Source of the DNA: Ridgeia piscesae
Taxonomy: Eukaryota > Annelida > Polychaeta > Sabellida > Siboglinidae
Assembly: GCA_025642075.2 (NCBI GenBank)
Contig: JAODUO010000625.1
Span: 40,001 to 104,000 of the forward strand
Direction: 5' to 3'
DNA length: 64,000 nt
In this document: piece by piece, positions 18,036-60,844 of the stretch
How the letters are laid out: every line of letters begins with the position of its first letter
How positions within the stretch are numbered: position 1 is the first letter of the stretch
Notes under the pieces: generated by a model
What the model saw: only the letters and a program-made list of their open reading frames with translations
The model's database searches: none
What the model was told of the DNA's origin: nothing
Translations under genes and position numbers: made by a program

Positions 18036-18131
18036 ATGTCCAGTGACATGGACGATGCTGTCAGTGCGGTGTGTGAGAAGGTGCCATGTCGGCGACAGCA
18101 AGCACAGTTGCTTACTCTACTCTTTGGAAAG
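18036..18131 (+). CDS. ORC5: ORC5 coding exon 1
   Basis: MSSDMDDAV..., 32 codons ending LLTLLFGK, matching human SILQSLFG. The ATG at 18036 is the first after an acceptor at 18011. A second in-frame ATG at 18048 is the alternative start. Confidence 0.88.
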
Positions 18132-21100
18132 GTGGGAAGAGAGGGAAATAGCCAGAGAAGGTGCTTCTTTGTGATGCTGGGTTAAGTTGTAAAACAAGTA
18201 CAGGAATAGGGTAAAATCAGTTTGCAAAACAATTTGTCATCAATATCATCCATTATTTTTAATGCATTGGTATGATATGAAGAAGTTCCAATATTAGACA
18301 TTGCAGGACCCACTCAGTACGTTGCTTCACAACTTCCTGTTGAATTTGATGACGGCAGTAGTTATTTCCCTGAGCAGTTGGGCTATGGCTTAGCCATTAT
18401 ATATATCTCTCTGTCTCTGTCTCTGCTCCATTATAGTGATATATCATCGATCTTTTGGGTAAATTTGCTCCTGACTGGTTGGGGAAATAGCTTTGGATTC
18501 TGTTGAAAGTGGTTGTTGTGTTTTGCATTGCAGAAAGACCAGGTTGTTGTGCCAAGTTTGTTCCTCTATGGCCACACAGCCACAGGCAAGTCCCTCCTGG
18601 TCGACACTCTCCTGACACAGCTGAAGGTGAGCAACATTGAGGAGGCATCTCAGAATTGTGGCATCATTCTATTCACCGAGTGGCACTTCACTTTCATGAC
18701 TCATAACTGCATGCATATGCTTGAATTGCTAGGTGATCTAAGATAGGGCCATTCAACAAGCATATAAGGCGGGTGGAACTTTCAAAATAAAACATAAGAA
18801 GCTTTGTACTGGAGGAAGTTTGGAATTGACAATGTGTGCTGAAATGAGTCCTTGGCCAGCTGGTGGGTGTTTGCATTAATAAGATATCGGTGTTTAAAAT
18901 TGTTTGTGTTATAATACATCGTATGGACATAAAATGTATAATAGGTTGTGCTATAATTTACTGGAATAACATAATTTAATATTAAGTAACAAAATACAGC
19001 AACGAAAACTTGCAACCTACTCGTGACACAACGTCCTGTGTAATTATCAAAGGTCAAGGGTCAGGTCAAGTTCAGTGCACATGCATGTATAACATAAATA
19101 GTCCCACTCTTGACACATACATTTTCTCCACATTACAATGGATAACCTTGCTTCTTATTTATATACATCCAACCTATTGAGCTTGGTTTCCAAATTCCAA
19201 TGTATTTGTCTGTTGAAAGTGTTTGCGTTGTTTCCCAGGCCCGCTATGTGGTGGTGAATTGTGTGGAATGTTACACAGCAAAGCTTGTGTACGAATCCAT
19301 ACTCAACAAGTTGTCTGGCATCATTCCTTCGCCCAGCAACGACTACGCCATCTACAGGCGGTGTGACAACATGGATGACTTTGTGCGACATCTCTGTCTG
19401 GTGGAGAAGCAGAATGACACATCTGGAGAAACAACATATATAGTGAGCATGACATTGTCACATTACAGACGGAGTTCACTACATGAAACCAGTAGTCACC
19501 ATCAGGGCTGGGGTCAATTCAAAAAGAATTGGAATTGATCAATTCCAATTCTATTCCGTAATTGGAGCGGGAATGGAATTGAAATATTTTGAACAAAATT
19601 AATTGAATTGGAATTTAATTTTTTTTTATTGAATCGTAATTGGAATTGAAAGATTGGAATTGAATTGGAATTACTTAGAGTGACATGGTCCGTTCGTGGC
19701 TTTTTATTTTTGTTGCAAAATCATGTTATACGGAATAAACTATACCTATTATATCATAAAGGCAGTCAAAATATGTTTTAATGGGGTTGAAAATAGACGC
19801 AGTAAGGGTGCTTAACTCTGTGTACAAATCGACCACGAGGCGTTTTAGAAACCGTTGTAGGCATGGTTAAAAGTCCAGAAGGAAATGCATGATCACGCGA
19901 TGCAGTATCACATGAACACAAGTTGACGCTACTAACGCCACACCCAGCCAGGTGCACGGCTCCCAGTTGGTAAAGGTCAAAGGGTGTGTGTCATTCGCAG
20001 CGATTTGAGTGACAGCGTCGGGATTCTTATAAACATTCAACGTTTAACATTACAAAGTCAGTTCAGTTTCGATAAAACATTTATTGGCAGTCAGGACGCT
20101 ACAATAGTTATAACTTATACTGATTAACATGATTTTGCAATAAAAATAAAAAGCCACAAACTGATCATGTCGCTTTAATTACCAAGACAAGTTGGACAAT
20201 GAAGCTGCTGGTCAAACATTACCCAGCAGTTAATCAGTGGATGAAACTGATGAATGGGAAGTCAATTAGTCTTGTCTTACTGCCTTGTGTGAATGAGTGC
20301 TGGCTGGGGACTGCTTCAAAGAAGCATTGAAATTGCCCAGGTAACAGTTGCACTTTCCCTGGAATTGGATTTGAAAGAATGGAATTTACCCCAGCCCTGG
20401 TCACCATTGGTGATATATTCGTCATGCCTACAGTTGTTGAAATAACATAACTTTGCATGATTTTATCAGGGGTATCACTGCATGTTTGTCTGATTTTAAT
20501 TAATCTCATGACATTTGCAGACTGAATCATCTCATTACATTATGTTAGTTCACAACAGTGGGAAGTTAAACAGCATATTTAGTATTTTCTGAGGAACACA
20601 GATTTGTGAACAAACAATATTTTTGTGTTTATGTTTTCACATCTTTTTTGTGTTTGATTAACCATATATTTTTTCTCAAAGCTTTTGACACAATCTTCTA
20701 CAGGACTTGCTAATAACGTCTCCTTTGCAATGTCTGTCCAGTTTGGATTTTATGTAATTTGCCTGGCATTGAAAGTTATGGTAGAGTGGGGGAGACATGT
20801 GCTGTATCAACAAAGCTACCAACCTCACTTAGAGCAACCACTTGCTCTAATACTACTTCAGACTAGTTATATAACAGGTTATGGGTGTGACTTCTGTATC
20901 CATGGTGATCTTTTTGTGATTATTGACAATCCCCCATGTACCATCCAATTCTGCCCACATACTAATACTGTTGCTGAAAGGGCATCTTCTGTTGCAATAT
21001 GAATTGTGAATGTGATCCTAAAATAATCCTGATTGTTTACACAGGTGTTTGATAAAGCTGAGCGATTGCGGAACATGCAGGCAAATCTACTTCCAGTATT

Positions 21101-24100
21101 TCTCAGATTGCAAGAACTTGTGAGTATTTCAGGGCTTCGTTTCTTCTATAATGTTTCATTGCAATAAAAAGATTTTTACATTATAATAAGTTAAATTCAG
21201 TTACAACAAATGTTTTATAGTATCTTTCTAGTATGTTTAAATATGTTTATGTTTAGTTTATGTAATGATAATGTAATAATGTATATGTCCATTAAACCAG
21301 TGAATGTGTGCACCATTGACTCAATGGCATTGATCCAGTGATCTGTGTTCTATTGATCCAGTGATCTGTGTTCCATTGATCCAATGATCTGTGTTCCATT
21401 GATCCAGTGATCTGTGTTCCATTGATCCAGTGATCTGTGTTCCATTGATCCAGTGATCTGTGTTCCATTGATCCAGTGATCTGTGTTCCATTGATCCAGT
21501 GATCTGTGTTCTATTGATCCAGTGATCTGTGTTCCATTGATCCAGTGATATGTGTTCTATTGATCCAGTGATCTGTATTCCATTGATCCAGTGATCTGTG
21601 TTCCATTGATCCAGTGATCTGTGTTCCATTGATCCAGTGATCTGTGTTCCATTGATCCAATGATCTGTGTTCCATTGATCCAGTGATCTGTGTTCTATTG
21701 ATCCAATGATCTGTGTTCCATTGATCCAGTGATCTGTGTTCCATTGATCCAGTGATCTGTGTTCCATTGATCCAGTGATCTGTGTTCCATTGATCCAGTG
21801 ATCTGTGTTCTATTGATCCAGTGATCTGTGTTCTATTGATCCAATGATCTGTGTTCCATTGATCCAGTGATCTGTGTTCTATTGATCCAGTGATCTGTGT
21901 TCCATTGATCCAGTGATCTGTGTTCCATTGATCCAGTGATCTGTGTTCCATTGATCCAGTGATCTGTGTTGTCAGACTGGAGGTCTCAATGTGTGTGTGC
22001 TGCTGCTGTCCGAGATCATGATCTGGTCAGACCAGTGTTGTGTTCAGATGAACCAGGATCGTGTTCTATGAGTCCTGTGATCTGTTTCAGATCCAATGAT
22101 CATGACTTACACAGCCAGTGATTGTTTCTATGATACACAGTGACTTAGAGATCATGATCTAGATGTCCTGTGTGTTGTTTCAGTCATGATCTTGTGTCAT
22201 GACTGGCCGTGTGTTGCTTTCAGATGCTCTGAGAGTGCATGACACAGACTGATGTGTGTATGTTTAGTCTCAGATTCCCAGACTACTAGCAGCCGGTGTG
22301 TTGTTCAGATGACAGAGATCATGACTCTAGAATGTGTTGTTTTCAGTATGAACTCTTAGAGATCATGACTCTAGACTGCCCACTTTGTGTTGTTTCTAGA
22401 TGAACTCTTAGAGATCATGACTCTAGACATGTCTTGTGTGTTGTTTTAGATGAACTCTTAGAGATCATGACTCTAGACTGTCCGTGTGTTGTTTTAGATG
22501 AACTCTTAGAGATCATGACTCTAGACTGTCCGTGTGTTGTTTCAGATGAACTCTTAGAGATCATGACTCTAGACTGCCCGTGTGTTGTTTCAGATGAACT
22601 CTTAGAGATCATGTTCTAGACTGCCCGCGTGTTGTTTCAGTGAACTCTTAGAGATCATGACTCTAGACTGCCCGCGTGTTGTTTCAGATGAACTCTTAGA
22701 GATCATGACTCTAGACTGCCCGCGTGTTGTTTCAGATGAACTCTTAGAGATCATGACTCTAGACTGCCCGCGTGTTGTTTCAGATGAACTCTTAGAGATC
22801 ATGACTCTAGACTGCCCGCGTGTTGTTTCAGATGAACTCTTAGAGATCATGACTCTAGACTGCCCGCGTGTTGTTTCAGATGAACTCTTAGAGATCATGA
22901 CTCTAGACTGCCCGCGTGTTGTTTCAGATGAACTCTTAGAGATCATGACTCTAGACTGCCCGCGTGTTGTTTCAGATGAACTCTTAGAGATCATGACTCT
23001 AGACTGCCCGCGTGTTGTTTCAGATGAACTCTTAGAGATCATGACTCTAGACTGCCCGCGTGTTGTTTCAGATGAACTCTTAGAGATCATGACTCTAGAC
23101 TGCCCGCGTGTTGTTTCAGATGAACTCTTAGAGATCATGACTCTAGACTGCCCGCGTGTCTTTTTGATCCCTGTTGTTTCAGATGAACTCTTAGAGATCA
23201 TGACTCTAGACTGCCCGCATGTGTTGTTTCAGATGAACTCTTAGAGATCATGACTCTAGACAGCCCGTGTGTTGTTTCAGATGAACTCTTAGAGATCATG
23301 ACTCTAGACAGCCCGTGTGTTGTTTCAGATGAACTCTTAGAGATCATGACTCTAGACAGCCCGTGTGTTGTTTCAGATGAACTCTTAGAGATCATGACTC
23401 TAGACAGCCGTGTGTTGTTTCAGATGAACTCTTAGAGATCATGACTCTAGACAGCCCGTGTGTTGTTTCAGATGAACTCTTAGAGATCATGACTCTAGAC
23501 AGCCCGTGTGTTGTTTCAGATGAACTCTTAGAGATCATGACTCTAGACAGCCCGTGTGTTGTTTCAGATGAACTCTTAGAGATCATGACTCTAGACTGTC
23601 CGTGTGTTGTTTCAGATGAACTCTTAGAGATCATGACTCTAGACAGCCTGTGTGTTGTTTCAGATGAACTCTTAGAGATCATGACTCTAGACAGCCCGTG
23701 TGTTGTTTCAGATGAACTCTTAGAGATCATGACTCTAGACAGCCCGTGTGTTGTTTCAGATGAACTCTTAAAGATCATGACTCTAGACAGCCCGTGTGTT
23801 GTTTCAGATGAACTCTTAGAGATCATGACTCTAGACAGCCCGTGTGTTGTTTCAGATGAACTCTTAGAGATCATGACTCTAGACTGTCCGTGTGTTGTTT
23901 CAGATGAACTCTTAGAGATCATGACTCTAGACTGCCCGCGTGTTGTTTCAGATGAACTCTTAGAGATCATGACTCTAGACTGCCCGCGTGTTGTTTCAGA
24001 TGAACTCTTAGAGATCATGACTCTAGACTGTCCGTGTGTTGTTTCAGATGAACTCTTAGAGATCATGACTCTAGACTGCCCCCCGGACTACTCCTCTCAA

Positions 24101-27100
24101 TTCTACTCCAGCTACCTCAAACTACTTCTCAGTGTCTTCCACAGCGTCTGTCGCAACCTAAGTGAACTGCGCCATCTGGTGAGTGATGTTGTAATCACAG
24201 CACACAGGTACCTTGTGGGTAATAATCTGTTTGTATTTTTGTATCCCTGTAGGGACCATGGGTTAAACACTAATCATGTAGAAGATGTTTCTGCTCGTAG
24301 AACAAATGAACAATACATGCACCCCAGTTTAACACCTTTCAAAGGCAGAGGAACTGGTTTCAAGAATAGGCAATTTTAAACAAATCAAATTATTATTTTT
24401 TAGTTTTCTCGGTTTATGATAATCACACATTTTTAGTAAACCCTGTGCAGTTTCTAAGAAGAACATGGAGGGCATAATCAATGTTTTCCAGCCACCTTAT
24501 TGCATTATGCATATTGTTGAATATTTGTTTTTTCAGGCATGGCTCAATTTTGACAAATACGTAGAACCTATTAAGAAAGGGGACGGTGAGTCGTGTGTAC
24601 TCTAGTGTGTTACTCCTCTACTCCAGCGTGTTACTTGCTTACTCAGTCTCCTTTAGTATACAAGCAGTACAACTCATGTACACCATGATGTTACTCATTC
24701 AATACACCTGTGCTACTCATCGACTCCACAATGTTTACTCATCAACTCCAGAATGTTTACTCATCGACTCCACAATGTTTACTCATCGACTCCACAGTGT
24801 TACTCATCAACTCCACAATGTTATTCATTTACTACACCTTGTTTCTGTCAACTCCACCTCAGTTACTCATCTACTAACTCTGCCTTAACCATCTACTGTG
24901 AGGCACATCTACACAACTGTTCAAATGTGTTAGTAATTTACTTACTTACAATAAGTAACAATGAGAAGAGTAATTCTCTGCTTATGTACTGTTTCTGTTT
25001 TTGGCCAGTTCATTTAATAAACTGCAACTGATGCGATATATGTGTGTGTGTGCGTGTGTGCGTGTGTGCGTGTGTGCGTGCATGCGTGCATGCATGCATG
25101 AATGCGTGCATGCGTGCGTGTGTTGTCATCAAGTAAATTACATTCTGATGTTTCATTATGTTTCTGAAACTTATAAGATGCTTGAGAAGATTCCACCAGA
25201 AACAACTCCTAAAATCAGTATGAGTTGTGTGTTTAATGAGAGCCAATGTTTGTCCTGGTTGTCATGGCAGCCAGCCTAGAGGACAACAGGAAACTGTGGA
25301 GAAATGTTGAGCCTCACTTACGGAGAGCTCTACGCACTGTCTACCTCAGAGAAGTGTCCAGGTAAAGTTATTTACGAAGAGAGTTCAAAATACATTTCTT
25401 CAGTTTAACTGAATAAAATAGTTAAAAAGTGCAATTTCACCACTGGGTTGGGTAGCTGTTTCAGAATACAGGTGTTACTTTCAAGAAAACACAGATTCTG
25501 AGGATGTTGAAGCATGTAATCGGTCCAGTAAACAAACTCACAGAAGGGAGCGTGCAGGCATTCAATGACATGTGGCACAGTGCAAGTTGATGAAATGCCT
25601 TGGAGATGATCAGCACACATTTTTATGCAATTCTGTTTTGTTTGTAGACAGCCAATGAGATAGTTGAGAGGTGGTGTTCTGTGCTGTATGTGTGTCTGTG
25701 GTGTTTACAGTGCCCAGTGGGAAAGACTACAACAGACAGAGGAGTCGTTATGTGCCAAGGCAACAGACAAAGCATTACAAGGTAACACATTGCTCCCACC
25801 ATCTCACTGCGTTACATCTGTTCACATGGAACTGTAAACTTATATGACCTGATACTGACATCGTAACATAGCTAAAAAATAATTTTATGGAACCCTTTAA
25901 TGAGAAACTTTATTTGCTGACTAGTTAGGTATATTAAGTCTAAGTTCACATAAAGTGGCATCATAGCAAAAAGACTACAATGAGTACATCACTCAAAAAG
26001 TCATGGCTGTTTTAGGTAAAAAAAAATCAAGTTGACGTCCCTGCAATGTATAGGCAACCATCCCTTTGACAAGTAATTTCTTCAAGTAACATCATGTGAA
26101 CTTAAATAGGTGGATGACAAGCATATCCCTTTCAAAAACTTCTCTTTTAACATCAGCCAATGAAATCAGCCACAAGGAGTGTGGTTGGCCTCCGGTCATG
26201 GGATATAATATTTTGGCTGATTCAGTCGCACGCTGCTAGTGATACATGCAATGTTTAGAACATGAATGGGTCATTATATCTGGATTCCCATAAGTTGTAT
26301 ATTCGTCTTCAAAATGGGGCGGTTATTTGCATTGTTCCACGGCTGACGCAGTAGCGACTGACGAAGTCAATAGCTTTATGGAGGCTAGGGCTATAGAAAC
26401 ATCGTGAAGTTGCCTCTGGCTTGTGAGGTGGCTGAAATGAACTACACCAACATCTGAATGTAGCGGAATAAGCAAGTCAACATGATGTTGACTCAGTGAA
26501 ACATCCAGAGGCAGTTGTTAGGACACAGAAGTTTTCACCGAAGGCAGGGACAAATGTGTGAACTGTCAGTGACACGGACCACAGTAAACATGTATATGTA
26601 AGCTACCCCTCTGTCTACAGGTGTGTCGTCCTGGGTGACCATGGAGCTGCCCTACTACTCCAAGTATCTCCTCATTGCGGCCTACATCGCCTCCTACAAC
26701 CCTGCCAAGTCTGACCGCAAGTTCTTTGCCAAGGTACACCCACTGTTCTCACAGACTCATGCTACTCATTAGCTAGTGTGTGGTGTATCTGTTATGTGTC
26801 CAAACTACCCAATGAGGCCAGTTTCACAGTGTTGATCTGACACTTTGTGGAACATTTCCAACTACCGGTCTCATAGTTGTTTCCATGGCTACGTCCTAAG
26901 TGGATAGTGACAGTGTACACTGCAGCTAATCTGTAATAACGCTTTGCTGCTGTGTCAAACATATGTATATTAACAGTAGAACCTTGCTATTAGGGTCACC
27001 TTTTGGGCCTGGGCAAAAGCGACAGTTGTGAGTTGTTGTATTATCAAGATAACAGTAGAGTGAGGTCTGGCTGTACATTAATGTCATAATACTTAATCTC

Positions 27101-29167
27101 AAACCAACAGAAATGTTTCACTGGGCAATTTTATATACCTTCCACAAGGCCGGCATTCAATGTTGTATAAAACGAATATATCATCCACATCTTCACAAAA
27201 TCCCGCACTGGTTTAGCTCCTTATTACATATTGTTTGAGAAAGAAAACATCGCAGAGTTTGTCAGTGGTGACGAGATTTAAACGTCTGTTTCTAGCACTC
27301 TGGCCGCGTGAACAAGCGAGTGGAGATGAGAGCACACAAGAAACTTGAACAGGTTTGTGCCTTTGTTGCAACATTTAGTGCTCACTTTAAACACTTGCCT
27401 CTAATAAAAACAGTCCTGTATCAATTTGTGCCGTCACTGACATAAATCGTCTTCTCATGAATTTATAAACAAATATAATATTTTCAGACAAACATTTACT
27501 ACTAAGAAATGATCTGTTTCCAGACCAACAACCAGTTGCTGGGGCCGAAGCCATTTCCTCTTGATCGTCTCATGGCCATCTTCTACGTGATAGTGGAGGG
27601 CAAAGTGGCCTTGTCTGCCAACATCTATTCACAGGTCGGTCCATCCTGTTATCATTCAGTGTTAATGACCAGTCGTGGTTATTTTTTACGGTCGGTTTCC
27701 ATCTTGTTTTATCTTATTAAATTAATTACCTTTATTTTAGTTGGCCTCTATTATGGATGCATTTCCACAATAAAGTAAATTATCTGTGGACTCTGACGAT
27801 GATTTGTTCATCCCTGTTCACAATATATGCATAAAATAAGCATTTCATATGTTTTTTATTATGTCCTCAATTTAATTAAAACACTTGTAGGGTTTTAGTA
27901 CAACTGACTGAACAGAATTTTAAACAATATACTATTTTAATCTATCTTGTCATCGGTTCTGTTTAAAGCTTTGGAAATGAAAATGAAACCAACTTGGTGA
28001 TTACAGTGTCCACCATGGTCAGAACATTGGCCTTCATCCAGATTCTACTCTATCAAATGCTGAATGTTAAGTCTGCATGCCATTGACAAATGTATTGTTA
28101 ATTAGCAAAATTAGCAACAAATCAAAGAAGTACTGTATAATGATTATTTTACAAAACAATTTGTTATAGCATGTTTACAGAAAGCATCAGTGATTTCACG
28201 CGGTTTTATTTCGTTCAGACACTGGCACTGCACATTTTTGTGTGTGCATGATACCTGTCATGTCAGCAACAGCCATTATTACAACTGTGTATATTTTAAT
28301 TTAAAGGGATCCCCGATTGTTTTTCAGATCAGTTCACTGGTGACGCTGGGTTTAATGATGCAGATCTCGAGCTCTGAACCACTCGATGCTCCCCGCTACA
28401 AATGCCTCATTTCCCTGCAGTTTGTCAAGTCTGTCGCCAGGTGCGTAGGTCACAGTCCCAGGGTGCAATATGTACACCTGTCAACGTATCACGTTTTTTT
28501 AGAGGTTCTAGGATTTGTTGTGTAACTCCAACTGAATTTTATTTAAATCTGCTGGATTGTATATTATAAGAAATTAGGGGTAGACATGTAAATAGTTCAA
28601 AATAAGTCTCAAGGGGGTTGCAGTTGAATGCATTTGGGGAGGGAGAGTGAAATGGGTGGAGTTGGGTGTTTTGGTGAGCTTTGAGTGTAGCTGGAGGTTT
28701 TTGGTGAGCCTTACAAGGCATGTGGTTAGAAGCTTTTATTTAAACAAATGCAAGTTCTCAGGAATTTCTGAACTGAAATATATATGTTACTGATAAAACT
28801 GAAATTTATTATGGTTAAATATGAAAGAAATACAGTATATAGTGAAACAAGTGTTGATAAATCAATAGCCAAAGCAACAGTGGATTTGTAGTCAAACCAT
28901 TTGCAATGTTTATGGACTGATCCAATATATTGCATATGGATAACATCCCATAATATTATTTGTGAAATAAAATATCTGGCTGCTACTAATGTTTAGTCCT
29001 TGTCACACGTAATTGTGATATTATTTACATTTTATTGCATACATAAATAATGTTTTATAATAGTGAACTAGTTGTAAAAAACAAACCTGACATGACTTTG
29101 CTGATTGTTTTCTTCCAGAACCATCAACTTTGAAGTGTTGCGCTATCTGTATGACTTCGCCTGCTGA
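18036..29167 (+). CDS. ORC5: Origin recognition complex subunit 5 (ORC5), 14 coding exons seen
   Basis: ORC5 is an AAA+ subunit of the origin recognition complex, which loads the MCM helicase. Exons: 18036-18131, 18534-18626, 19239-19442, 21045-21119, 21976-about 22037, 24048-24178, 24537-24585, 25271-25361, 25711-25781, 26621-26733, 27296-27352, 27524-27634, 28328-28440 and 29119-29167. Seen: Walker A GHTATGKS (residues 45-52), [10 protein letters not shown], the Walker-B region [12 protein letters not shown] across exons 3/4, LLSEI in exon 5, then the C-terminal half through [32 protein letters not shown] and the ending RYLYDFAC. The segment corresponding to about 25 human residues between exon 5 (SEI) and exon 6 (ILSHDHPPEYS) is not found; repeats and disordered sequence occupy that interval. 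An acceptor at 18011 implies a 5'UTR intron. Confidence 0.94.
18534..18626 (+). CDS. ORC5: ORC5 coding exon 2 (Walker A)
   Basis: Thirty-one codons with [15 protein letters not shown], the ATP-binding P-loop. Phase 0 at both ends, donor gtgagc. Confidence 0.97.
19239..19442 (+). CDS. ORC5: ORC5 coding exon 3
   Basis: Encodes [20 protein letters not shown] and [10 protein letters not shown], ending GETTYI just before the Walker-B strand. Acceptor tttcccag, donor gtgagc. Confidence 0.96.
19503..20399. mobile_element. Non-autonomous hAT-type DNA transposon in ORC5 intron 3
   Basis: The left end CAGGGCTGGGGTCAATTC and right end GAATTTACCCCAGCCCTG are imperfect terminal inverted repeats. A perfect 8-bp target-site duplication GTCACCAT flanks them at 19495-19502 and 20400-20407. 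Eight-base duplications and CAGGG termini are hallmarks of the hAT superfamily. The first 180 bases are filled with GGAATTGAATT-type subterminal repeats. No transposase frame is present in the 897 bp, so it must have been moved in trans. Confidence 0.9.
21045..21119 (+). CDS. ORC5: ORC5 coding exon 4 (Walker B / sensor helix)
   Basis: Twenty-five codons [20 protein letters not shown] to LQEL, nearly identical in pattern to human VLDKAEYLRDMEANLLPGFL. Donor gtgagt. Confidence 0.97.
21320..21970. repeat. 23-bp minisatellite ending at the ORC5 exon 5 acceptor
   Basis: About 28 copies of a 23-bp unit (ATTGATCCAGTGATCTGTGTTCC, variants at three positions). The last partial unit, GATCTGTGTT, runs directly into GTCAG, the acceptor of exon 5, so the array supplies the sequence just before the splice site. 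Confidence 0.96.
21976..22037 (+). CDS. ORC5: ORC5 coding exon 5, 3' end not resolved
   Basis: After acceptor gttgtcag the frame reads [17 protein letters not shown], matching human ADRNVTVLFLSEIVW. Homology then stops and the frame meets a stop near 22069. The following 400 bases look like scrambled copies of the neighbouring repeats. The end given is only the end of recognisable coding sequence. Confidence 0.75.
22038..22616. repeat. Scrambled, indel-rich copies of the 48-bp unit
   Basis: Fragments such as TGTGTTGTTTCAG, GATCATGA and CTAGACT recur at irregular spacing with many gaps. Regular units appear only from about 22390. The missing part of ORC5 exon 5 should lie in or near here. Either true degeneration or failed consensus would give this picture. 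Confidence 0.75.
22617..24075 (+). repeat. 48-bp minisatellite; every unit carries the ORC5 exon 6 splice acceptor
   Basis: About 30 units. Each has the intronic CGTGTTGTTTCAG and then exon-derived GATGAACTCTTAGAGATC through CTAGACTGCCC. The encoded 16-residue unit is [16 protein letters not shown]. Subtypes are clustered: TGCCCGCG units at 22617-23160, AGCCCGTG units at about 23220-23870, then mixed. The last unit passes straight into exon 6. Frame breaks occur near 22617, 23160-23220 and 23405; otherwise the plus and minus strands are both open. Confidence 0.96.
24048..24178 (+). CDS. ORC5: ORC5 coding exon 6, acceptor lies in the last unit of a 48-bp array
   Basis: Encodes [20 protein letters not shown] and [19 protein letters not shown], matching human KILSHDHPPEYSADFYAAY onward. 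The acceptor gtttcag at 24041-24047 gives the phase. About 30 upstream copies of the same acceptor exist, and the frame is open upstream to 23441, so the true 5' end is ambiguous by multiples of 16 codons. Confidence 0.9.
24537..24585 (+). CDS. ORC5: ORC5 coding exon 7
   Basis: [16 protein letters not shown], matching human AVLNFPKYCEPVVKGE. Phase 0 start, phase 1 end, donor gtgagt followed at once by a TACTC-rich repeat. Confidence 0.94.
24586..24895. repeat. Degenerate TACTC-rich repeat starting at the ORC5 exon 7 donor
   Basis: Irregular units around TACTCATCGACTCCACAATG begin about 20 bases after the donor and fade near 24890. Confidence 0.75.
25038..25125. repeat. (GTGT/GCGT/CATG) microsatellite in ORC5 intron 7
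   Basis: Alternating purine-pyrimidine run of TGTGTGCG then TGCATGCG units. Confidence 0.9.
25271..25361 (+). CDS. ORC5: ORC5 coding exon 8
   Basis: [20 protein letters not shown], followed by REVS, in the winged-helix half. Acceptor atggcag, donor gtaaag. Confidence 0.96.
25711..25781 (+). CDS. ORC5: ORC5 coding exon 9
   Basis: [20 protein letters not shown] and a few more residues, matching human SQWEKLQ. Phase 2 start, phase 1 end. Confidence 0.93.
25782..26620. other. ORC5 intron 9, no feature seen
   Basis: Unique AT-rich sequence. No repeat, open frame or element could be supported. Confidence 0.6.
26621..26733 (+). CDS. ORC5: ORC5 coding exon 10
   Basis: [20 protein letters not shown], then [11 protein letters not shown]: the most conserved stretch of the C-terminal domain. 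Acceptor ctgtctacag. Confidence 0.97.
27296..27352 (+). CDS. ORC5: ORC5 coding exon 11
   Basis: Nineteen codons, [19 protein letters not shown], basic linker matching human HHGKIKKTNFLKKHEK. Phase 0 at both ends. Confidence 0.93.
27524..27634 (+). CDS. ORC5: ORC5 coding exon 12
   Basis: [20 protein letters not shown] and ANIYSQ, start of the winged helix. Thirty-seven codons, phase 0 at both ends. Confidence 0.97.
28058..28170. repeat. Dispersed repeat copy in ORC5 intron 12
   Basis: Shares ATGTATTGTTAATTAGCAAA and the following ATTAGCAACAAATCAAAGAA, then AGCATGTTTACAGA, with 30025-30140 in the same orientation. The ends are not defined. Confidence 0.75.
28328..28440 (+). CDS. ORC5: ORC5 coding exon 13
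   Basis: [20 protein letters not shown], then [17 protein letters not shown], matching human DGPKYKCTVSLDFIRAIA. Donor gtgcgt. Confidence 0.96.
29119..29167 (+). CDS. ORC5: ORC5 coding exon 14 (terminal)
   Basis: [15 protein letters not shown] then TGA at 29165-29167, matching human TVNFDIIKYLYDFL. Confidence 0.96.
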
Positions 29168-37300: not shown

Positions 37301-37692
37301 AGGACCGTAGACTCACACGTAGAACTGACACAGATGTAGAGATGCCGTGAACAGACACGTAGAGACGACACTGAACTAATGTAGAGACTGACACGTAGAG
37401 ACTGACATAGTAGACTGACACGTAGAGACTGACACGTAGAGACTGACACGTAGAGACTGACACGTAGAGACTGACACGTAGAGACTGACACGTAGAGACT
37501 GACACGTAGAGACTGACACGTAGAGACTGACACGTAGAGACTGACACGTAGAGATCGAGACACTAGAGACTAACACTGTAAGACTGACACGTAGAGACTG
37601 ACACGTAGAGACTGACACGTAGAGACTGACACGTAGAGACTGACACGTAGAGACTGACATGTAGAGACTGACACGTAGAGACTGACACGTAG
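31380..37692. repeat. Giant 14-bp satellite array (GTAGAGACTGACAC)n
   Basis: About 6.3 kb, roughly 450 units between ORC5 and reelin. Common variants are AATG for ACTG and CAT for CAC. Because 14 is not a multiple of three and no unit carries a stop on the minus strand, minus-strand frames of hundreds of codons (CQSLRVSLYVSVST period) arise. They are not genes. Blocks such as 31440-31740, 32930-33880 and 37410-37550 are almost perfect. Blocks such as 31750-32080, 32230-32900, 34080-35400 and 36690-37400 have an indel every one to three units. Confidence 0.97.
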
Positions 37693-37695
37693 AGA

Positions 37696-49100: not shown

Positions 49101-52100
49101 TGTATGTGAATGTGTAATGGAGTGTGTACATGAGTAATGGGGCATGTACCTGAGTGTGTAATTGAGTGTCACTCAGTGTGTACCTGTGTGTAATGGGGCA
49201 TGTACCTGAGTGTGTATTCGAGTGTCACTCAGTGTGTGCCTGTGTGTGTAATGGGGCTTGTACCTGAGTGTGTAATGGAGTGTCACTCAGTGAGTACCTG
49301 TGTGTAATTGGGCATGTACCTGAGTGTGTAATTGAGTGTCACTCAGTGTGTGCCTGTGTGTGTAATGGGGCATGTACCTGAGTTTGTAATGGAGTGTCAC
49401 TCAGTGTGTGTCTGTGTATGTAATGGGGCATGTACCTGAGTGTGTAATGGAGTGTCACTCAGTGAGTACCTGTGTGTAATTGGGCATGTACCTAAGTGTG
49501 TAATTGGGCATGTACCTAAGTGTGTAATTGAGTGTCACTCAGTGTGTGCCTGTTTGTGTAATGGGGCATGTACCTGAGTGTGTAATGGAGTGTCATTCAG
49601 TGTGTACCTGTGTGTAATGGAGTGTCATTCAGTGTGTACCTGTGTGTAATGGAGTGTCATTCAGTGAGTACCTGTGTGTAATGGAGTGTCACTCAGTGTG
49701 TACCTGTGTGTAATGGAGTGTCATTCAGTGTGTACCTGTGTGTAATGGAGTGTCACTCAGTGTGTACCTGTGTGTAATGGAGTGTCATTCTGTGTGTAAT
49801 GGAGTGTCATTCAGTGTGTACCTGTGTGTAATGCAGTGTCACTCAGTGTGTACCTGTGTGTAATTGAGTGTCACTCAGTGTATAACTGTGTGTAATGGAG
49901 TGTCATTCAGTGTGTACCTGTGTGTAATGGAGTGTCACTCAGTGTGTACCTGTGTGTAATGGAGTGTCACTCAGTGTGTACCTGTGTGTAATTGAGTGTC
50001 ATTCAGTGTGTACATGTGTGTAATGGAGTGTCAGTGTGTACCTGTGTGTAATGGAGTGTCACTCAGTGTGTACCTGTGTGTAATGGAGTGTCATTCAGTG
50101 TGTACCTATGTGTAATGGAGTGTCACTCAGTGTGTACCTGTGTGTAATGGAGTGTCATTCAGTGTGTACCTGTGTGTAATTGAGTGTCACTCAGTGTGTA
50201 CCTGTGTGTAATGGAGTGTCATTCAGTGTGTACCTGTGTGTAATGGAGTGTCACTCAGTGTGTACCTGTGTGTAATGGAGTGTCACTCAGTGTGTACCTG
50301 TGTGTAATGGAGTGTCATTCAGTGTGACCTTTGTGTAATGGAGTGTCATTCAGTGTGTACCTGTGTGTAATGGAGTGTCATTCAGTGTGTACCTGTGTGT
50401 AATGGAGTGTCATTCAGTGTGTACCTGTGTGTAATGGAGTGTCACTCAGTGTGTACCTGAGTGTGTAACAGAATACATACATGTATGTAATGATGTGTGT
50501 ACCTAAGTATGTAGCGGAGTGTGTACTTTAGGCTGCTGTGGCATGTGTGTGTAATGTTGTGTGCCTGTGTACTGGAAGGTGAGTCTGACAACTACAGAAA
50601 CAGAGACTGAAATAGAGTTGACTGAAGCAACATGTAATTGTGTATGTATGGCAATGTAACTTGGCATATAAGTGTGCAACATGGTGTAACATGGTGTAAC
50701 AACATGTTATGGAACATGCAACATGGATCATTCAATGCATCATGTAACAGAATCTGATGGAGTCTGCAATGAAGTGTTCACTGTTGGTTGTAACTTAGTA
50801 CAAAATGGAAGTGTAAATGTGTTGGTTGTTGCAGGCATTGGCAGTTGTTTTACAAAAGCAAGTGCCAGACAGGCGGACGTGTTTGTGTACGCAGAGGATG
50901 ACCACGGTCACACGGTCAGCCTTCTCAACTTGACCACACAAATCTTGGACAAGGTCAGTTGGAAAACAATGGAATCAATTCCAACAGGTAGCTCAGTTAT
51001 GGATGTCATAATGATTAACTGTAATACAATATTACATTTGTCGGAAAATGGCTCAGATGAGCTAATGTTATCAAATTCATATGTAAACCGACGATAAATA
51101 AAGTGTCTTGTATCTTGATGTGATGTATGTATTATAGTAAATTAATTAACAAAATAATGTTATTTTACTCTCATTTATATTGTCCGACCTATAATCAGTT
51201 AATCATTCAACTGGTTATAAATAATTTAAAATAAATTATTTATTTGACCAATATTTATAACACATCGTGCTGCATATATAGTATTACTATTATTTTATTT
51301 TGCACTATTATAGAAGTGTATCATTTGTTTTTATTTCAATGTCTCCCTGACTCCCAGGTTGTCAGACGGGTGTCCGTGCCCATCCCCCCAAGGGCAAGGA
51401 AGGGATGGTCCCGGCTGTGCTGGGTACAGAAGAGTCACGGGGGAAAGAACTATGACGTGTGGTCAATCGACTCTGTCCAGGTCCGCCCGCTCATCCCAAG
51501 GGAGGCGAGGCACTATGTCCAGTTTGCCATCAACATGCACTGTGGACCACAGGGCATCAATAGCAGGTCAGTTCACACTCAGTTCACACTGGACCACAGG
51601 GCACCACATTCAGTCCACACTGGACCACAAGGAATCAACAGCAGGTCAGTGCATATTCAGTCCACACTGGACCACAGGGAATCAACAGCAGGTCAGTTCA
51701 CATTCAGTCCACACTGGACCACAAGGAATCAACAGCAGGTCAGTTCACATTCAGTCCACACTGGACCACAGGGCATCAACAACAGGTCAGTTCACATTCA
51801 GTCCTCACTGGACCACAGGGAATCAACAACAGGTCAGTTCACATTCAGTCCTCACTGGACCACAGGGAATCAACAACAGGTCAGTTCACATTCAGTCCAC
51901 ACTGGCCCACAGGGAATCAACAACAGGTCAGTTCACATTCAGTCCTCACTGGACCACAGGGAATCAACAACAGGTCAGTTCACATTCAGTCCTCACCGGA
52001 CCACAGGGAATCAACAACAGGTCAGTTCACATTCAGTCCACACTGGCCCACAGGGAATCAACAACAGGTCAGTTCACATTCAGTCCTCACTGGACCACAG

Positions 52101-55100
52101 GGAATCAACAACAGGTCAGTTCACATTCAGTCCTCACTGGACCACAGGGAATCAACAACAGGTCAGTTCACATTCAGTCCTCACTGGACCACAGGGAATC
52201 AACAACAGGTCAGTTCACATTCAGTCCACACTGGACCACAAGGCACCACATTCAGTCCACACTCGGTCCACACTGGACCACAGGGTATCACATTCAGTCC
52301 ACACTGGACCACAGGGAATCAACAGCAGGTCAGTTCACATTCGGTCCACACTGGACCACAGGGAATCAACAACAGGTCAGTCCACATTCAGTCCTCACTG
52401 GACCACAGGGAATCAACAGCAGGTCAGTTCACACTCGGTCCACACAGGACCACAGGGAATCAACAACAGGTCAGTCCACATTCAGTCCACACTGGACCAC
52501 AGGGAATCAACAGCAGGTCAGTTCACACTTGGGCCACACTGGACCACAGGGAATCAACAGCAGGTCAGTTCAAACTTGGGCCACACTGGACCACAGGCCA
52601 TCAACAGCAGGTCAGTCCGTCCACACCCAGTCCACATTGTGGATAACAGGGCATCAACAGCAGGTCAGTTCACACTCAGTTAATGCTGTAGTGTCTGTGT
52701 TGATTCACTGAAGTGTCCCTGCTGGGCAACTGTAGTGTCCCAGCAAAGTAACAGTAGTACTATTGTTGAGTGGATGCTGTAGTGTCCCTGATAGACATTT
52801 GACACCAGAGAACAGCTACAGGATGTGTGCAATACACCTGTGTGTTGTGTTGCAGTGTCAGTCTGGAGTTCTCCACAGACCTGGGAGTCAGCTGGTTCCC
52901 GCTGTATGAGAGATGTCTACCCGGCTCCTGTCAGGGATCTCTCCAGACCCTCTCTTCCTTCTACCAGGCAACTCAGTCCACTGGGTGAGTGACTACTGCC
53001 CTGCAAACTTGACCAGTGATGTGGGATCGAGTGTCCTGGAGTCAGTAGTCCAGGACACCGCATTCCATTTTTGTGTGTGACTTGATGTGGAGGATCGATT
53101 GTTCTGCTGCTTCTGTCAGTGACATGATGAAGTGAGGAATTTTTTTTTTTTAGTGGATCCAGTCGCTATTTTGCAAAGATAGATGCACTAGTGCATTGGC
53201 TATACTATAACATACAGCAAAGATTATTCACACTCCTGCCTGTTACCCTTATCTAAACTTTAAAATAATTAAACATTTACTAATAATTTTAACATCAATG
53301 ACCTGATTTGAGATGGTTTAATTTGTTTGAGGAGGAAGTTTTAATGGTTTGTAGAATCGAAATATATCGTCTAGTCACCATGTGTGCTATATTGAACATG
53401 CATGTGTTCATGCCACTAGATGGCAGCAATACACAGTTCCTATACCGATGGCCGCCCTCACTAGACACAGTCGCTTCCGCTGGCGACAGTTGAATGCAAG
53501 AGAAGGTGGGAGCTGGGCGATAGACAGTGGTGAGTTCATTTAACACTCAGGTGGTCAAACCAACGGGTTCAATATTCTAAGTACCTCTGTCAAAACCAGC
53601 CAAACCAACAAAGAGTTCACACATAAATGTAAAACGTGTTTTAACCATTTTATATAGAATATTTTAGCAAACTGCGCTGAGGATAGTTTACGTCGCAGTT
53701 ATACCATGTTTGTGTCATACTGTCGATTTAATTTATTAACTTAAATTTTATTTATATTTTATGTCTGTTGCATCATGTATTTTACTATTTTCCATCATTT
53801 AATATTGTATGCATGTACGATTGTGTGTGGACCCCACTGAAAAGAAGTCCAGTGTATATTTTAATGTGCGCTGTATTTAGCTGGGCCATCCTGAATAAAT
53901 ATATTTATTATTATTATAACAAAATTTACCATTTTTATTGTAAAACTTTTTATAATTATCATAATATAATGCCCAGCTCAAATATATTTTAGTAAATAAT
54001 ATAATTTTACAAATTATATTTTTATAATCATTTTGTTTGATATATGTTAAATGTCAGTGGCCATTATTGTGGTAAAAAATTTTCTTTGCTCAAGCAGTGG
54101 ATTGTCAAATGTTTGCATTGTTTTCCTGATTCTACATTTGTTGTCTTACATTGTTCTTGTTCTCTGATTAAAGGGCAGAATTACACTTTGTATGTCAAAT
54201 TGTGCCAGTAATATGACAAATTATTCAATGTTGCACCTGTAGAGTGTCATTGTGTGACATTTGTAATGTCATTGTATGACATTTGTAATGTCATTGTGTG
54301 ACATTTGTAAGATCTCAACTGTTTCAGTCTACATTGGGCCCTGCAGGGGTGGCTGCAATGGACGAGGAACCTGTACCCAGGCAGGGTGTCAGTGAGTCAT
54401 CTCTTTACATCTAAGTGACACACAGTGACACACAGTTGACACAATGACATACAGTTGACACACAGTGACATACAGTGACACACGGTGACACACAGTGACA
54501 CACAGTTGACACAATGACATACAGTTGACACACAGTTGACACACAGTGACATACAGTGACACACAGTGACACACAGTTGACACAATGACATACAATTGAC
54601 ACACAGTTGACACATAGTGACATACAGTGACACACGGTGATACACAGTGACACACAGTGACACACAGTTGACACACAGTTGACACAGTGACATACAGTTG
54701 ACACACAGTGACACACAGTTACACACAGTGACACACAGTTGATACGCAGCGACACACAGTGACACACAGTGACACACAGCTGACAGTCCTGGTTCAAATG
54801 CTTTGCTCCGGCCATTTCGAACAGCTGCTTCAGTTCACTCTGTTTGAATAATCATCTGGCAGTAGTGATTAATAATTGCAGCATGGCTGAATGCTTCCCA
54901 CCGATTGGGTCTTTGAATGAGTGTCCATTCAGTGAAAGTATGTCCAGTCACTGAGTTAATGTTTCGTCTACAAGTATCAAGTCACCAACTGAGTGCCCAG
55001 TCATTGAGCAACTGTCCAGCCACTGAGTGAATGTCTAGTCATTGAGTAAGTGTCCAGTCACTGAGTGAGAGTCTAGTCATTGAGTAAGTGTCCAGTCATT

Positions 55101-57974: not shown

Positions 57975-59718
57975 ACTGTTCAGTATTTAAAAGTAATTTG
58001 ATATCAAATGATAACACCAGCAAGAGTACACTTTCAGTAAAGTGCACTTATTACTTCATAATACTCACTCTATCAGTGTCACAGTCAGTGACAGGACAAA
58101 GTGGCCTAAATCCACCACTGTCATCAACTGTTGCCCGAGTGACGTTGCGTGTCGTCCCACCAGGTACCTCCAGTTCAGTGTCAGGGTCGGGAGTGAGTCA
58201 GACACGGGGGACTGTGCCCTGCCTGACAGCGACGACGAACTCGTGCTGCTCCAGTACTCCTGCTCCGGGGCCGTGCGGTGGAGCACGCTCCGACTCCTCA
58301 CTCCGGGAGACTTCAGTGAGCCCCAGTATGTCACTAGTCTCAGTATGTCATTATTCCTAGTGTGTCACTAGCCCCAGTGTGTCATTATTCCTAGTGTGTC
58401 ACTAGCCCCAGTGTGTCATTATTCCTAGTGTGTCACTAGCCCCAGTGTGTCACTAGCCCCAATGTGTCATTAGTCCCAGTATGTCACTAGCCCAAGTATG
58501 TCACTAGCCCAAGTATGTCACTAGTCCCAGTATGTCACTAGCCTGAGTATGTCACTTGTCCCATATGTCACTATCCTAAGTGTGTCATTATTCCTAGTGT
58601 GTCACTAGCCCCAGTGTGTCATTATTCCTAGTGTGTCACTAGCCCCAGTGTGTCATTATTCCTAGTGTGTCACTAGCCCCAGTGTGTCACTAGCCCCAAT
58701 GTGTCATTAGTCCCAGTATGTCACTAGCCCCAGTATGTCACTAGCCCAAGTATGTCACTAGTCCCAGTATGTCACTAGCCTGAGTATGTCACTTGTCCCA
58801 TATGTCACTATCCTAAGTGTGTCATTATTCCTAGTGTGTCACTAGTCCCTGTGTGTCACTAGCCCCAGTGTGTCATTATTCCTAGTGTGTCACTAGCCCC
58901 AGTGTGTCACTAGCCCCAATGTGTCATTAGTCCCAGTATGTCACTAGCCCAAGTATGTCACTAGCCCCAGTGTGTCACTAGTCCCTGTGTGTCACTAGCC
59001 CCAGTGTGTCACTAGTCCAAGTATGTCACTAGTCCCAGTATGTCACTAGCCTGAGAATGTCACTTGTCCCATATGTCACTATCCTAAGTGTGTCATTATC
59101 CCCAATATGTCACTAGCCCAAGAGTGTCACCAATCTCTCCCTAGCACCAGTGTTACTGTACTGCATATATCTTTATACTTGTGAAGTGTTACACTCAATT
59201 AAAATGAAAAATAACTTTTGGAACTTGAACAAATTATGCAAGACAGAAATATTATGAATGACATTTTTCAAACCAATTCAGTTAATTTTGTTAGTTCTTC
59301 TTCCTTTCATCTGGATGACTTCAAGACATGAGCTGTTGTTAATGCAATTGTAGACATATTTCTCTTAGTCAGTGTCATGAAAGATTAAACCTGAAGAGAT
59401 CAAAGATTGACTACATCTAGTCAGGTACTGTACAAAGGTTGTTGCCAGCAGAAGCATCAGGTGGATGAGTTGTCCTTCCAGAATGGTGTCCGTCCACCTG
59501 CCGGCCCAGGCAAGGCAGGCCGCCTGTCGCTTCCGCTGGTGGCAACCGGTTCACTCCGGTTATGCCCGGGACGTGTGGGCAGTGGACGACGTTTCCCTCA
59601 CCGGTCACCTCTACAACACCATCAGTCTGGACTTCACCAACCGACAGGATACAGACATCGCACTCGACGTCCACCTCGGACACACAGACCCCTACTGCGG
59701 CCTGCAGCACACTCTCAG
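40487..59718 (+). CDS. RELN: Reelin, 5' portion (18 coding exons; continues beyond window)
   Basis: Reelin is a very large secreted glycoprotein; in vertebrates it signals through VLDLR/ApoER2 to guide neuron positioning. Eighteen exons with matching phases give about 902 codons: 40487-40709, 43045-43300, 44164-44234, 44650-44758, 45596-45689, 46166-46217, 46638-46728, 47495-47747, 48449-48591, 48809-48963, 50835-50953, 51358-51566, 52856-52984, 53420-53529, 54328-54391, 57237-57467, 58164-58325 and 59482-59718. Seen: signal peptide (residues 1-25), Reeler domain (about 28-180) with PFFFLCNYHG and GTGCVSFLATATLG, CWALDNVLV and DPVDPGNWLFFPGA, the first reelin repeat, an EGF-like module at about 674-702 (CNGRGTC..CNFDFEGPSC), then the next sub-repeat with FRWWQPVHSGYARDVWAVDD. 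Human reelin has its first EGF at the same residue position. The remaining two thirds or more lie to the right. Introns are loaded with minisatellites. Confidence 0.96.
40735..41690. repeat. 27-bp minisatellite in reelin intron 1
   Basis: About 30 imperfect units of CAGCTAATCCACTAACCTAC plus TCATAGA, starting about 25 bases after the exon 1 donor. Confidence 0.92.
41700..43044. other. Rest of reelin intron 1, no feature seen
   Basis: AT-rich unique sequence with short A/T runs. No open frame or element supported. Confidence 0.6.
43045..43300 (+). CDS. RELN: Reelin coding exon 2 (Reeler domain)
   Basis: VTIMSTRDFDGFMLTGLYT, QKFVCSVVHSYIGH and FLWRAPAAGTGCVSF. Acceptor tgtttcag, donor gtgagt. 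Confidence 0.96.
43301..43570. other. GC-rich patch in reelin intron 2
   Basis: Directly after exon 2, about 250 bases are unusually GC-rich for an intron here, with CTCTCCGGTCTCTCC, CTCTCCAGACCGCTCCG and a CATATG pair. It could be a regulatory patch or an old element. No termini were found. Confidence 0.3.
43724..43792. repeat. (AT)n microsatellite in reelin intron 2
   Basis: Pure AT run followed by TATATATTATATT. Confidence 0.95.
44164..44234 (+). CDS. RELN: Reelin coding exon 3
   Basis: ATATLGDQVLFKDTTVMQLC, then EEG; end of the Reeler domain. Phase 2 in, phase 1 out. Confidence 0.96.
44650..44758 (+). CDS. RELN: Reelin coding exon 4
   Basis: RPKLALIHSEGIVFRDDFDS, matching human HLAEIHSDSIILRDDFDS. 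Donor gtaatg splits a Trp codon. Confidence 0.95.
44862..45000. repeat. (GTGC)n / (GT)n alternating purine-pyrimidine tract
   Basis: A GTGC/GTGT run, with near-pure GCGT from about 44875 to 44940. Alternating purine-pyrimidine of this length can adopt left-handed helix. Confidence 0.95.
45180..45400. repeat. Imperfect CCATC/CTGT-rich low-complexity tract
   Basis: Degenerate short units (CTGTCCGTCCAT, CCACCCATCCAC, CTGCCCACCTGC) in reelin intron 4. Confidence 0.6.
45596..45689 (+). CDS. RELN: Reelin coding exon 5, GC donor
   Basis: GVEISDKCGVVLSGHAAVAC, then GETNRTL. The homology and phase end at CTG followed by GCAAGT, so the intron begins with GC rather than GT. The rest of the donor matches consensus. 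Confidence 0.92.
46046..46114. repeat. (AT)n microsatellite in reelin intron 5
   Basis: Pure AT run ending about 50 bases before the exon 6 acceptor. Confidence 0.95.
46166..46217 (+). CDS. RELN: Reelin coding exon 6 (mini-exon)
   Basis: Fifty-two bases: ITQPLNMTTAAVLQFSV, matching human ITTGLNTTTASVLQFSI. Acceptor tttgtag, donor gtaagt. Confidence 0.95.
46638..46728 (+). CDS. RELN: Reelin coding exon 7
   Basis: SGTCAVPDDDVVVYYGTQDC, then TLWTPFEHI. Acceptor cttcacag, ends two bases into an Arg codon. Confidence 0.93.
47215..47420. repeat. AT-rich dispersed repeat, copy 2, internally duplicated
   Basis: Two or three diverged units of about 75 bases with ATATCTCAAAGATGGCCTTT-like and ATATCTAAAACG phrases; similar to 7480-7562. 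Confidence 0.5.
47495..47747 (+). CDS. RELN: Reelin coding exon 8
   Basis: STVVVRLPADARQTDICLKW, CWALDNVLV and DPVDPGNWLFFPGARIM. The acceptor gttgtcag at 47494 was chosen over cag at 47440 because it alone completes the split Arg codon and matches the family. Confidence 0.95.
47753..48440. other. Reelin intron 8, diverged internal repeat only
   Basis: Two related stretches (near 47960-48090 and 48350-48445) share ACAGTGGCTTTAGAAA-like and AAGTTATTG phrases. Otherwise unique AT-rich sequence. Confidence 0.45.
48449..48591 (+). CDS. RELN: Reelin coding exon 9
   Basis: HKCHSDTNAMVFV, YNYVTTRDIDL and FFEETFDGKVEG. Phase 0 in, phase 2 out, donor gtaagt. Confidence 0.95.
48809..48963 (+). CDS. 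RELN: Reelin coding exon 10
   Basis: NNCGVLDRGTATVM, RLLCSPSINLKEAGNLRFHF. Donor gtgggt; a 32-bp array begins about 60 bases on. Confidence 0.95.
49022..50470. repeat. 32-bp minisatellite in reelin intron 10
   Basis: About 40 units around GTGTACCTGTGTGTAATGGA followed by GTGTCACTCAG. Early units are longer with GGGCATGTACCTGAG. Begins about 60 bases after the exon 10 donor. Confidence 0.95.
50835..50953 (+). CDS. RELN: Reelin coding exon 11
   Basis: QADVFVYAEDDHGHTVSLLN, the BNR-like strand of sub-repeat 1A. Acceptor gttgttgcag, donor gtcagt. Confidence 0.93.
51358..51566 (+). CDS. RELN: Reelin coding exon 12; its donor is the seed of a 47-bp array
   Basis: RLCWVQKSHGGKNYDVWSID, matching human FCLRQKNHQGHNRNVWAVD, and HYVQFAINMHCGPQGINSR. 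The last about 28 exon bases plus donor gtcagt are repeated about 23 times downstream. The frame stays open to 52683, so the true donor could be any of several copies; the first is chosen because it joins exon 13 with family-like length. Confidence 0.92.
51567..52680 (+). repeat. 47-bp minisatellite; every unit carries the reelin exon 12 donor
   Basis: About 23 units. Each contains GGACCACAGGGAATCAACA then ACAG, derived from the exon 12 end, followed by GTCAGTTCACATTCAGTC from the intron start. All three plus frames are open through the array. Confidence 0.96.
52856..52984 (+). CDS. RELN: Reelin coding exon 13
   Basis: [20 protein letters not shown], then CLPGSC, matching human [20 protein letters not shown]. 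Donor gtgagt. Confidence 0.95.
53420..53529 (+). CDS. RELN: Reelin coding exon 14
   Basis: WQQYTVPIPMAALTRHSRFR, then WRQ and SWAIDS, matching human WNRITIPLPNAALTRNTRIR. The acceptor (ccactag) sits inside a perfect CTCF-core match. Confidence 0.93.
54328..54391 (+). CDS. RELN: Reelin coding exon 15 (EGF-like, first half)
   Basis: VYIGPCRGGCNGRGTCTQAG, matching human [20 protein letters not shown]. Acceptor gtttcag, donor gtgagt. Confidence 0.96.
54405..54785. repeat. 10/11-bp repeat after the reelin exon 15 donor
   Basis: Alternating CAGTGACACA and CAGTTGACACA units start 15-20 bases after the donor. Confidence 0.95.
54930..56995 (+). repeat. 38-bp minisatellite (dimer of 19-bp units) in reelin intron 15
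   Basis: About 54 copies of CATTGAGTAAGTGTCCAGT joined to a related 19-mer CACTGAGTGAATGTCTAGT. One half of each dimer contains GTAAGT, the ideal 5' splice-site hexamer. Confidence 0.96.
57237..57467 (+). CDS. RELN: Reelin coding exon 16 (EGF-like second half, sub-repeat 1B)
   Basis: CNFDFEGPSCD completes the EGF-like fold; then MLIDDMF and YLCGVVGSGKAVVFHEGG, matching human FGCGVLASGKALVFNKDG. Confidence 0.96.
57637..57972. repeat. (AC)n followed by (AT)n microsatellites in reelin intron 16
   Basis: An AC run of about 165 bases with small interruptions, then AT runs with ATGTGTATATA breaks to 57972. Confidence 0.95.
58164..58325 (+). CDS. RELN: Reelin coding exon 17; donor is the seed of an about 17-bp array
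   Basis: YLQFSVRVGSESDTGDCALP, LVLLQYSCSGAVRWSTL, ending FSEP. The last seven exon bases and donor gtatgt recur throughout the following array. Confidence 0.94.
58326..59125 (+). repeat. About 17-bp minisatellite with about 230-260-bp higher-order copies; units carry the reelin exon 17 donor
   Basis: Units such as AGCCCCAGTATGTCACT share 19 bases with the exon 17 junction AGCCCCA/GTATGTCACTAG. Blocks starting near 58360, 58590 and 58840 repeat the same series of variants (including ACTTGTCCCATATGTCACTA). Confidence 0.93.
59482..59718 (+). CDS. RELN: Reelin coding exon 18; donor is the seed of a 56-bp array
   Basis: MVSVHLPAQARQAACRFRWW and YNTISLDFTNRQDTDIAL, then DPYCGLQHTL, matching human FNSISLDFTNLVEVTQSL. 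Ends CTCAG with donor gtaggt. The next exon must lie beyond 64000. Confidence 0.95.
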
Positions 59719-60625: not shown

Positions 60626-60844
60626 ACACACACGCAATTGTGTGACCACGCAACGATTATCAAGATTGAACGGTCAAATTCTAAAGTTGGTTCTGCTGCA
60701 TAAAAACATATTTGGGTTTTCAATATAATAGACATAATATATACTGTATAACAAAACTGCACATTATAAATAAATAATATGAAAGCAAGAAGCGCACTCC
60801 TTTTAAGAACAAACATTTGTTACACTTAATATGGTTTGTGTTCA

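Follow-up and report, generated by a model that had tools for sequence, protein, structure and literature searches.

What becomes of a gene when one of its splice junctions is copied head-to-tail, dozens of times? The question arises in the tubeworm Ridgeia piscesae, in a window of 64,000 nt from contig JAODUO010000625.1 (C625:40001-104000), where the gene for origin recognition complex subunit 5, ORC5, carries a 48-bp minisatellite across the acceptor of its exon 6. An initial annotation of the window saw in it a ladder of equivalent 3' splice sites, and offered two outcomes: a replication protein of variable length, or a splicing burden that is simply tolerated. The second fits best. The feature is quite probably a tolerated minisatellite of the kind called 'mirages', intron filler that splicing would ignore, and not a switch of protein length. 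Mirages were described in the amphioxus globin genes BflGb6 and BflGb9, as minisatellites that tandemly duplicate exon/intron boundaries; the extracts of that account report length instability, with regular splicing undisturbed (PMC3087553).

The acceptor array of ORC5

The 48-bp array at the ORC5 acceptor is real. Tandem Repeats Finder (TRF) gives 36.0 copies, head-to-tail on the forward strand at 22334-24081, and it holds 36 exact copies of the core GAACTCTTA. Each unit joins 12-14 intronic bases ending TTGTTTCAG to 34 exonic bases of exon 6, much as the initial annotation had described the crossing of the junction (about 14 and 34 bases); in order, it reads GTGTTGTTTCAG, then ATGAACTCTTAGAGATCATGACTCTAGACTGCCC, then 1-2 junction bases. 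Exact 48-bp length is found in 30 of the 36 units, the remaining six being 52, 50, 46, 63, 50 and 47 bp long. There are 15 unit types, type G occurring 11 times and type J nine times; identical and variant units form runs along the 36 clean copies, in a plausible order. The final copy continues unbroken into unique coding sequence, up to a GTGAGT donor after 24178. The array had been placed at 22617..24178, a start too far downstream: clean copies begin at 22334, and noisy ones reach back to 22012.

The identity of the gene comes from homology. DNA and protein searches of the assembly (628 Mb, 4875 contigs) found one ORC5 locus among the best-scoring candidates. The joined exon translations hit four chains in the PDB under the name origin recognition complex subunit 5, with a best E of 1e-66; we take them to be the human and fly proteins. 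Closest among the matches listed, and in keeping with a siboglinid host, is ORC5 of the tubeworm Lamellibrachia satsuma (P0045; E 7.8e-204), with 338 identities in 440 columns that include 50 gaps; that is, 338 of 390 aligned residues are identical, or 77% with gaps counted. Tubulanus is next best in that list at 56%, and Branchiostoma stands at 54%. Homology and splice consensus together placed the exon 6 junction. A DNA search of the whole assembly, also judged on its best-scoring candidates, confined the 48-bp unit to the ORC5 locus and found a single array locus, with no second haplotype.

The units keep their splice signals. A loose GTTGTT...AG pattern matches 37 acceptor-like sites from 22281 on, 36 of them in the units and one in the noisy stretch. 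Over the last 14 acceptors, successive pairs are identical for 12 bases or more on the upstream side (counting the AG) and for 11 or more downstream, often for far more. Inside the unit lies a TGAC word, 27 nt before the next CAG, so that a unit could be a complete acceptor module.

The following course of events may be proposed. Slippage or unequal recombination would have multiplied a 48-bp segment over the intron 5/exon 6 junction, head-to-tail; each unit would then act as a full 3' splice-site module, composed of the putative branch-point word TGAC in the exonic part of the preceding copy, a T-rich tract and CAG. Exon 5 would be spliced mainly to the 3'-most acceptor, at 24048, because exon definition, an established principle of splice-site choice, favours the short exon of 131 nt that adjoins the donor at 24178; the remainder of the array would be treated as intron. 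If the 13 neighbouring acceptors were used now and then, the protein would gain multiples of 16 residues at a site between AAA core and lid; acceptors further upstream, if used, would lead to premature stops.

Reading frame and protein length

How many of the acceptors could be used without loss of frame? When every acceptor was tried in turn, with the phase taken from the real junction, 14 of the 37 gave an open, in-phase exon (starting at 23424, 23472 and onward to 24048, with 13 to 0 added 16-residue blocks). From each of the other 23, translation reaches a stop codon, and it is the 47-bp unit (23365) that throws acceptors further upstream out of frame. The figure of about 30 in-frame copies in the initial annotation was thus wrong: 30 of the 36 units are 48 bp long, yet only the 14 acceptors are open in phase. 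Its ladder survives in part: the amplification and the near-identity of the acceptors are real, but the frame is not kept by all or most of them. The unit consensus is open in the ORC5 frame; such openness says little, since it takes no more than a period that is a multiple of three and some 14 intronic bases free of stops. It is judged a modest coincidence, and the in-frame ladder is best read as incidental.

The alternative is that the ladder is in use. That is, several of the 14 acceptors would be chosen, and ORC5 would exist in forms that carry between 0 and 13 added blocks of 16 residues, perhaps differing between individuals and cells as the array changes in length. The run of 14 consecutive units that are open and in phase, with near-identical acceptor contexts, speaks for such use. 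The protein comparison speaks both ways. The blocks would enter after the AAA match and ahead of the ORC5_lid match (Pfam AAA_16 38-187 and lid 237-286 of P0045, with the junction after residue 217), which narrows the earlier placement in the AAA+ to winged-helix region. The stretch from FPDY to ELRHL measures exactly 50 residues in 115 of the 120 ORC5 homologues listed (of 730 matches), 52 in one, and 37 in four turtle models (P0154, P0156, P0157 and P0159). The turtle models lack 13 residues starting at the homologous junction, which suggests an alternative acceptor there and lends the ladder some support. The constancy of length in the 115 homologues argues the other way, as does the L. satsuma protein, which has no extra 16-residue block. 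Replacement changes occur among the units (Cys to Ser in 11 of the 30 48-bp units, Glu to Lys in one), and coding constraint is not evident. Finally, a 70-bp array in the neighbouring Reelin gene is unable to keep frame. Use of the ladder is therefore unlikely, and the length-variable replication protein first suggested for this locus is not supported by the 14 of 37 acceptors in frame, the fixed length among the homologues listed, the L. satsuma protein or the Reelin array. A structure in the RNA that would hide the array is not supported either, as one 288-nt stretch folds unremarkably (z -0.42).

The upstream edge and exon 5

The upstream end of the array is of another quality. About seven noisy copies of the unit adjoin the clean ones, at 22012-22333, with 66-80% identity and 13-25% indels in wrap-around alignment; the segment 22005-22350 scores 237 in local alignment, and at most 29 in 100 single-base shuffles. 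Exon 5 ends after SEI and passes into the array by way of GAGATC (22012-22017), a word common to the exon and the unit. In L. satsuma the rest of the exon reads VWEKFRQGTGVREPYVIHFPDYTA. These 24 residues were not found in the window by tblastn with the exon 5 peptides of five relatives, the one good match being the first part of exon 5; nor did the whole ORC5 query match them genome-wide at E up to 10, a search of limited sensitivity for 24 residues in 628 Mb. With no match in either search, a location of the missing end elsewhere was rejected. A short match, FSLRFPDY at 22263-22286, is a candidate for the end of exon 5, though a noisy array unit explains it too.

One way to understand this edge is as a partial artefact of assembly, an explanation compatible with a mirage. 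The array would exist, with its copy number and upstream end wrong; noisy long reads would have been joined through GAGATC, so that the last part of exon 5 and the first part of intron 5 dropped out. The halt at SEI within that word, the residues missing from window and genome searches, and the degraded copies lying beside clean ones are all consistent with such a join. The mitochondrial-like contig C3158 adds to them: its COX1 hops between reading frames, as ND2 presumably does too, and indel errors in the assembly are plausible for that reason. However, C3158 could be either a noisy consensus or a nuclear copy, perhaps degraded. The 36 clean copies, with their plausible order of identical and variant units, also argue against an artefact, as do the ORC5 exons other than exon 5, which are clean and without frameshift; moreover, minisatellites normally decay at their edges too, and a true null allele could account for the deletion. 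On balance a partial artefact is rather likely, and the truncation of exon 5 could be misassembly or a true null. Because exon 5 is cut off into noisy copies, the upstream edge and the copy number are unreliable, and 36 is not to be taken as the true number.

The same edge bears on a further possibility, that the array stands in place of the whole original intron 5 and that its units could become new exons or introns. This is the mirage model of intron gain, a route that the amphioxus authors propose in the extracts of their paper (PMC3087553). The units do carry a GT about 12-14 nt ahead of the AG. However, the position of intron 5 appears old, since turtle ORC5 isoforms differ exactly there, and the broken exon 5 hides the start of the intron. 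Such remodelling is very doubtful.

Arrays in the neighbouring Reelin gene

Is ORC5 alone in this? Reelin is the next gene identified after it, and several arrays straddle Reelin splice junctions (Table 1), a recurrence that speaks for the mirage reading. An exon map built from nine Reelin and three ORC5 proteins (12 chosen queries, the Reelins being nine of 120 listed) resolves 56 exon clusters across C625:1-234000, where 34 kb are N; most of its exon ends are tblastn ends, and its splice sites are predicted. The 47-bp array, which TRF starts at 51605, was extended by eye to the exon copy at 51544, in the placement test described below as well. The 70-bp array is larger than that of ORC5, and its period is not a multiple of three; frame-keeping is therefore not a property of the class.

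The ORC5-RELN span holds 26 non-overlapping minisatellites, and seven of them reach across a junction by 1-60 nt. Against the junctions of 57 exons, with the truncated ORC5 exon 5 left out, 10000 random placements of the arrays gave a mean of 2.0 (p 0.0034), a p value that is descriptive because the 60-nt depth limit was set with the arrays already in view. Five further arrays lie no more than 30 nt from a junction, the 23-bp array beside exon 5 not being counted. No array contains an exon or sits within one, whereas random placement produced about 19 instances; the arrays therefore reach up to exons and slightly into them, not through them.

Several points weigh against the ORC5 array as a tolerated mirage, or against the pattern in Reelin that accompanies it. 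Neighbouring acceptors are nearly identical, so leakage between them is plausible, and the choice of acceptor is a prediction from sequence. The last 14 units are all 48 bp long, but six of the first 22 have another length; the uniformity could hint at selection for frame, or could be merely the homogenised end of a minisatellite. With exon 5 broken, the array may be misassembled upstream. The straddling, for its part, depends on how depth is counted: at 5-60 nt it is not significant (4 observed, 1.85 expected, p 0.115), and at 5-400 nt there is no enrichment (4 against 5.7, p 0.84). A first version of the test, with no depth limit and some wrong exon ends, gave 3 against 5.8 at 5 nt or more (p 0.94) and 4 against 6.0 at 1 nt or more; an intermediate version, in which one locus was counted twice, gave eight straddles at 1-60 nt (p 0.0008), and 4 against 1.9 at 5-60 nt (p 0.126). 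The enrichment thus comes from the post hoc 60-nt limit and from the shallowest arrays. The boldest extension, that splice-junction minisatellites are a genome-wide mutational force in this tubeworm lineage and that the 14 frame-keeping acceptors of ORC5 yield proteins with 0 to 13 extra blocks, is highly improbable.

Table 1. Exons and arrays of the ORC5 and Reelin genes, in window numbering unless marked C625
Feature	Position	Strand	Basis
ORC5 exon 1	18036..18131	+	homology including tblastn
ORC5 exon 2	18534..18626	+	homology including tblastn
ORC5 exon 3	19239..19442	+	homology including tblastn
ORC5 exon 4	21045..21119	+	homology including tblastn
23-bp array of 28 copies; ends 5 nt upstream of ORC5 exon 5	21328..21970	+	TRF; no indels
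ORC5 exon 5, 5' part only	21976..22017	+	homology to L. satsuma
Noisy copies of the 48-bp unit, unreliable upstream edge	22012..22333	+	wrap-around and local alignment
48-bp minisatellite, 36 copies, ORC5 acceptor	22334..24081	+	TRF, unit list
63-bp unit, 15 extra bases	23108..23170	+	unit list
47-bp unit, frame lost for acceptors upstream	23365..23411	+	unit list, frame table
13 further units open in frame, each adding an alternative acceptor and 16 residues	23424..24047	+	frame table
ORC5 exon 6, 3'-most (canonical) acceptor to GTGAGT donor, 131 nt	24048..24178	+	residues conserved with L. satsuma P0045
ORC5 exon 7	24537..24585	+	homology
ORC5 exons 8 to 14, stop codon 29165-29167	25271..29167	+	tblastn
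Reelin donor-side mirage, 47-bp unit, about 23 exonic bases, GTCAGT donor	51544..52680	+	TRF, tblastn
Reelin donor-side array, 17-bp unit, about 4 exonic bases	58322..59129	+	TRF, tblastn
Reelin donor-side array, 56-bp unit, 9 exonic bases, GTAGGT donor	59710..60631	+	TRF, tblastn
Reelin acceptor array, 70-bp unit, 63 copies, acceptor and first 59 exonic bases	C625:117469-121900 (window numbering 77469-81900)		

Other features of the region can be noted in passing. Counting periods of at least 10 and at least 3 copies, C625:1-234000 holds 42 minisatellites, which make up about 55.8 kb of about 200 kb of readable sequence. A 14-bp array of about 466 copies, at 31387-37702 of the window, has a patchy indel density, from 0 to 15% per 300 bp, and the patches may mark unpolished reads. 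A reading frame at 523-966 of the window presumably encodes reverse-transcriptase-like motifs. ORC5 and Reelin are seemingly co-located in Owenia and Tubulanus, and in Sinanodonta the two proteins bear near-consecutive names, which suggests that the linkage is old; the human genes, we assume, are adjacent as well, at 7q22.

Relation to known mirages

How close is the ORC5 array to the mirages already described? In the extracts of the globin account (PMC3087553), the BflGb6 unit combines the end of an intron with the start of an exon, as in ORC5, while that of BflGb9 takes in the end of an exon; many of the globin units carry AG/GT signals, again as here. The number of BflGb6 units differs between haplotypes, reverse-transcription PCR suggested normal splicing, and the draft assembly is aberrant at that gene, as ours probably is at the upstream edge of the ORC5 array (PMC3087553). 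The differences lie in scale and host: six and three units of 150-160 bp in a cephalochordate (PMC3087553), against 36 units of 48 bp in an annelid. Amphioxus Adh3, as summarized in the same extracts, has mirages that repeat exon/intron boundaries and show somatic instability, with units of 10-72 bp that bracket 48 bp (via PMC3087553); they belong to another gene and another phylum. In lancelet PGBD5, repeats of 60 and 108 bp lie over 5' and 3' splice sites, with accurate splicing reportedly unaffected; their copies are few and imperfect, unlike those of ORC5, and troponin C is also cited in the extracts of that paper (PMC3902484). Nearer in host, earthworm metallothionein introns have minisatellite-like repeats, in an annelid as here, and the extracts of that report place no splice junction within them (PMC12783039).

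The ORC5 array thus shares with the amphioxus mirages tandem units of minisatellite size, an exon/intron boundary spanned by the unit, and retained splice signals. It departs from them in its annelid host, since the mirages described in the papers found are those of cephalochordates; what changes thereby is how widely the kind occurs and not how it is defined. No mirage or other splice-junction minisatellite outside the lancelets was recognised in the literature searched, which left most subscription journals outside its scope, and such arrays are not mentioned in the extracts of the one paper on siboglinid genomes and tandem repeats that came up. As far as these searches show, ORC5 extends the known kind to a new phylum.

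Mirages in two neighbouring annelid genes, with up to 63 copies, would make this a wider phenomenon. The arrays of ORC5 and Reelin lend themselves to comparison as a pair: the period keeps the frame in the first and, at 70 bp, does not in the second. For annotation they carry a warning, as such arrays can create false isoforms and broken exons. Dozens of near-identical acceptors in a row would also offer a natural test of how the spliceosome chooses among them.

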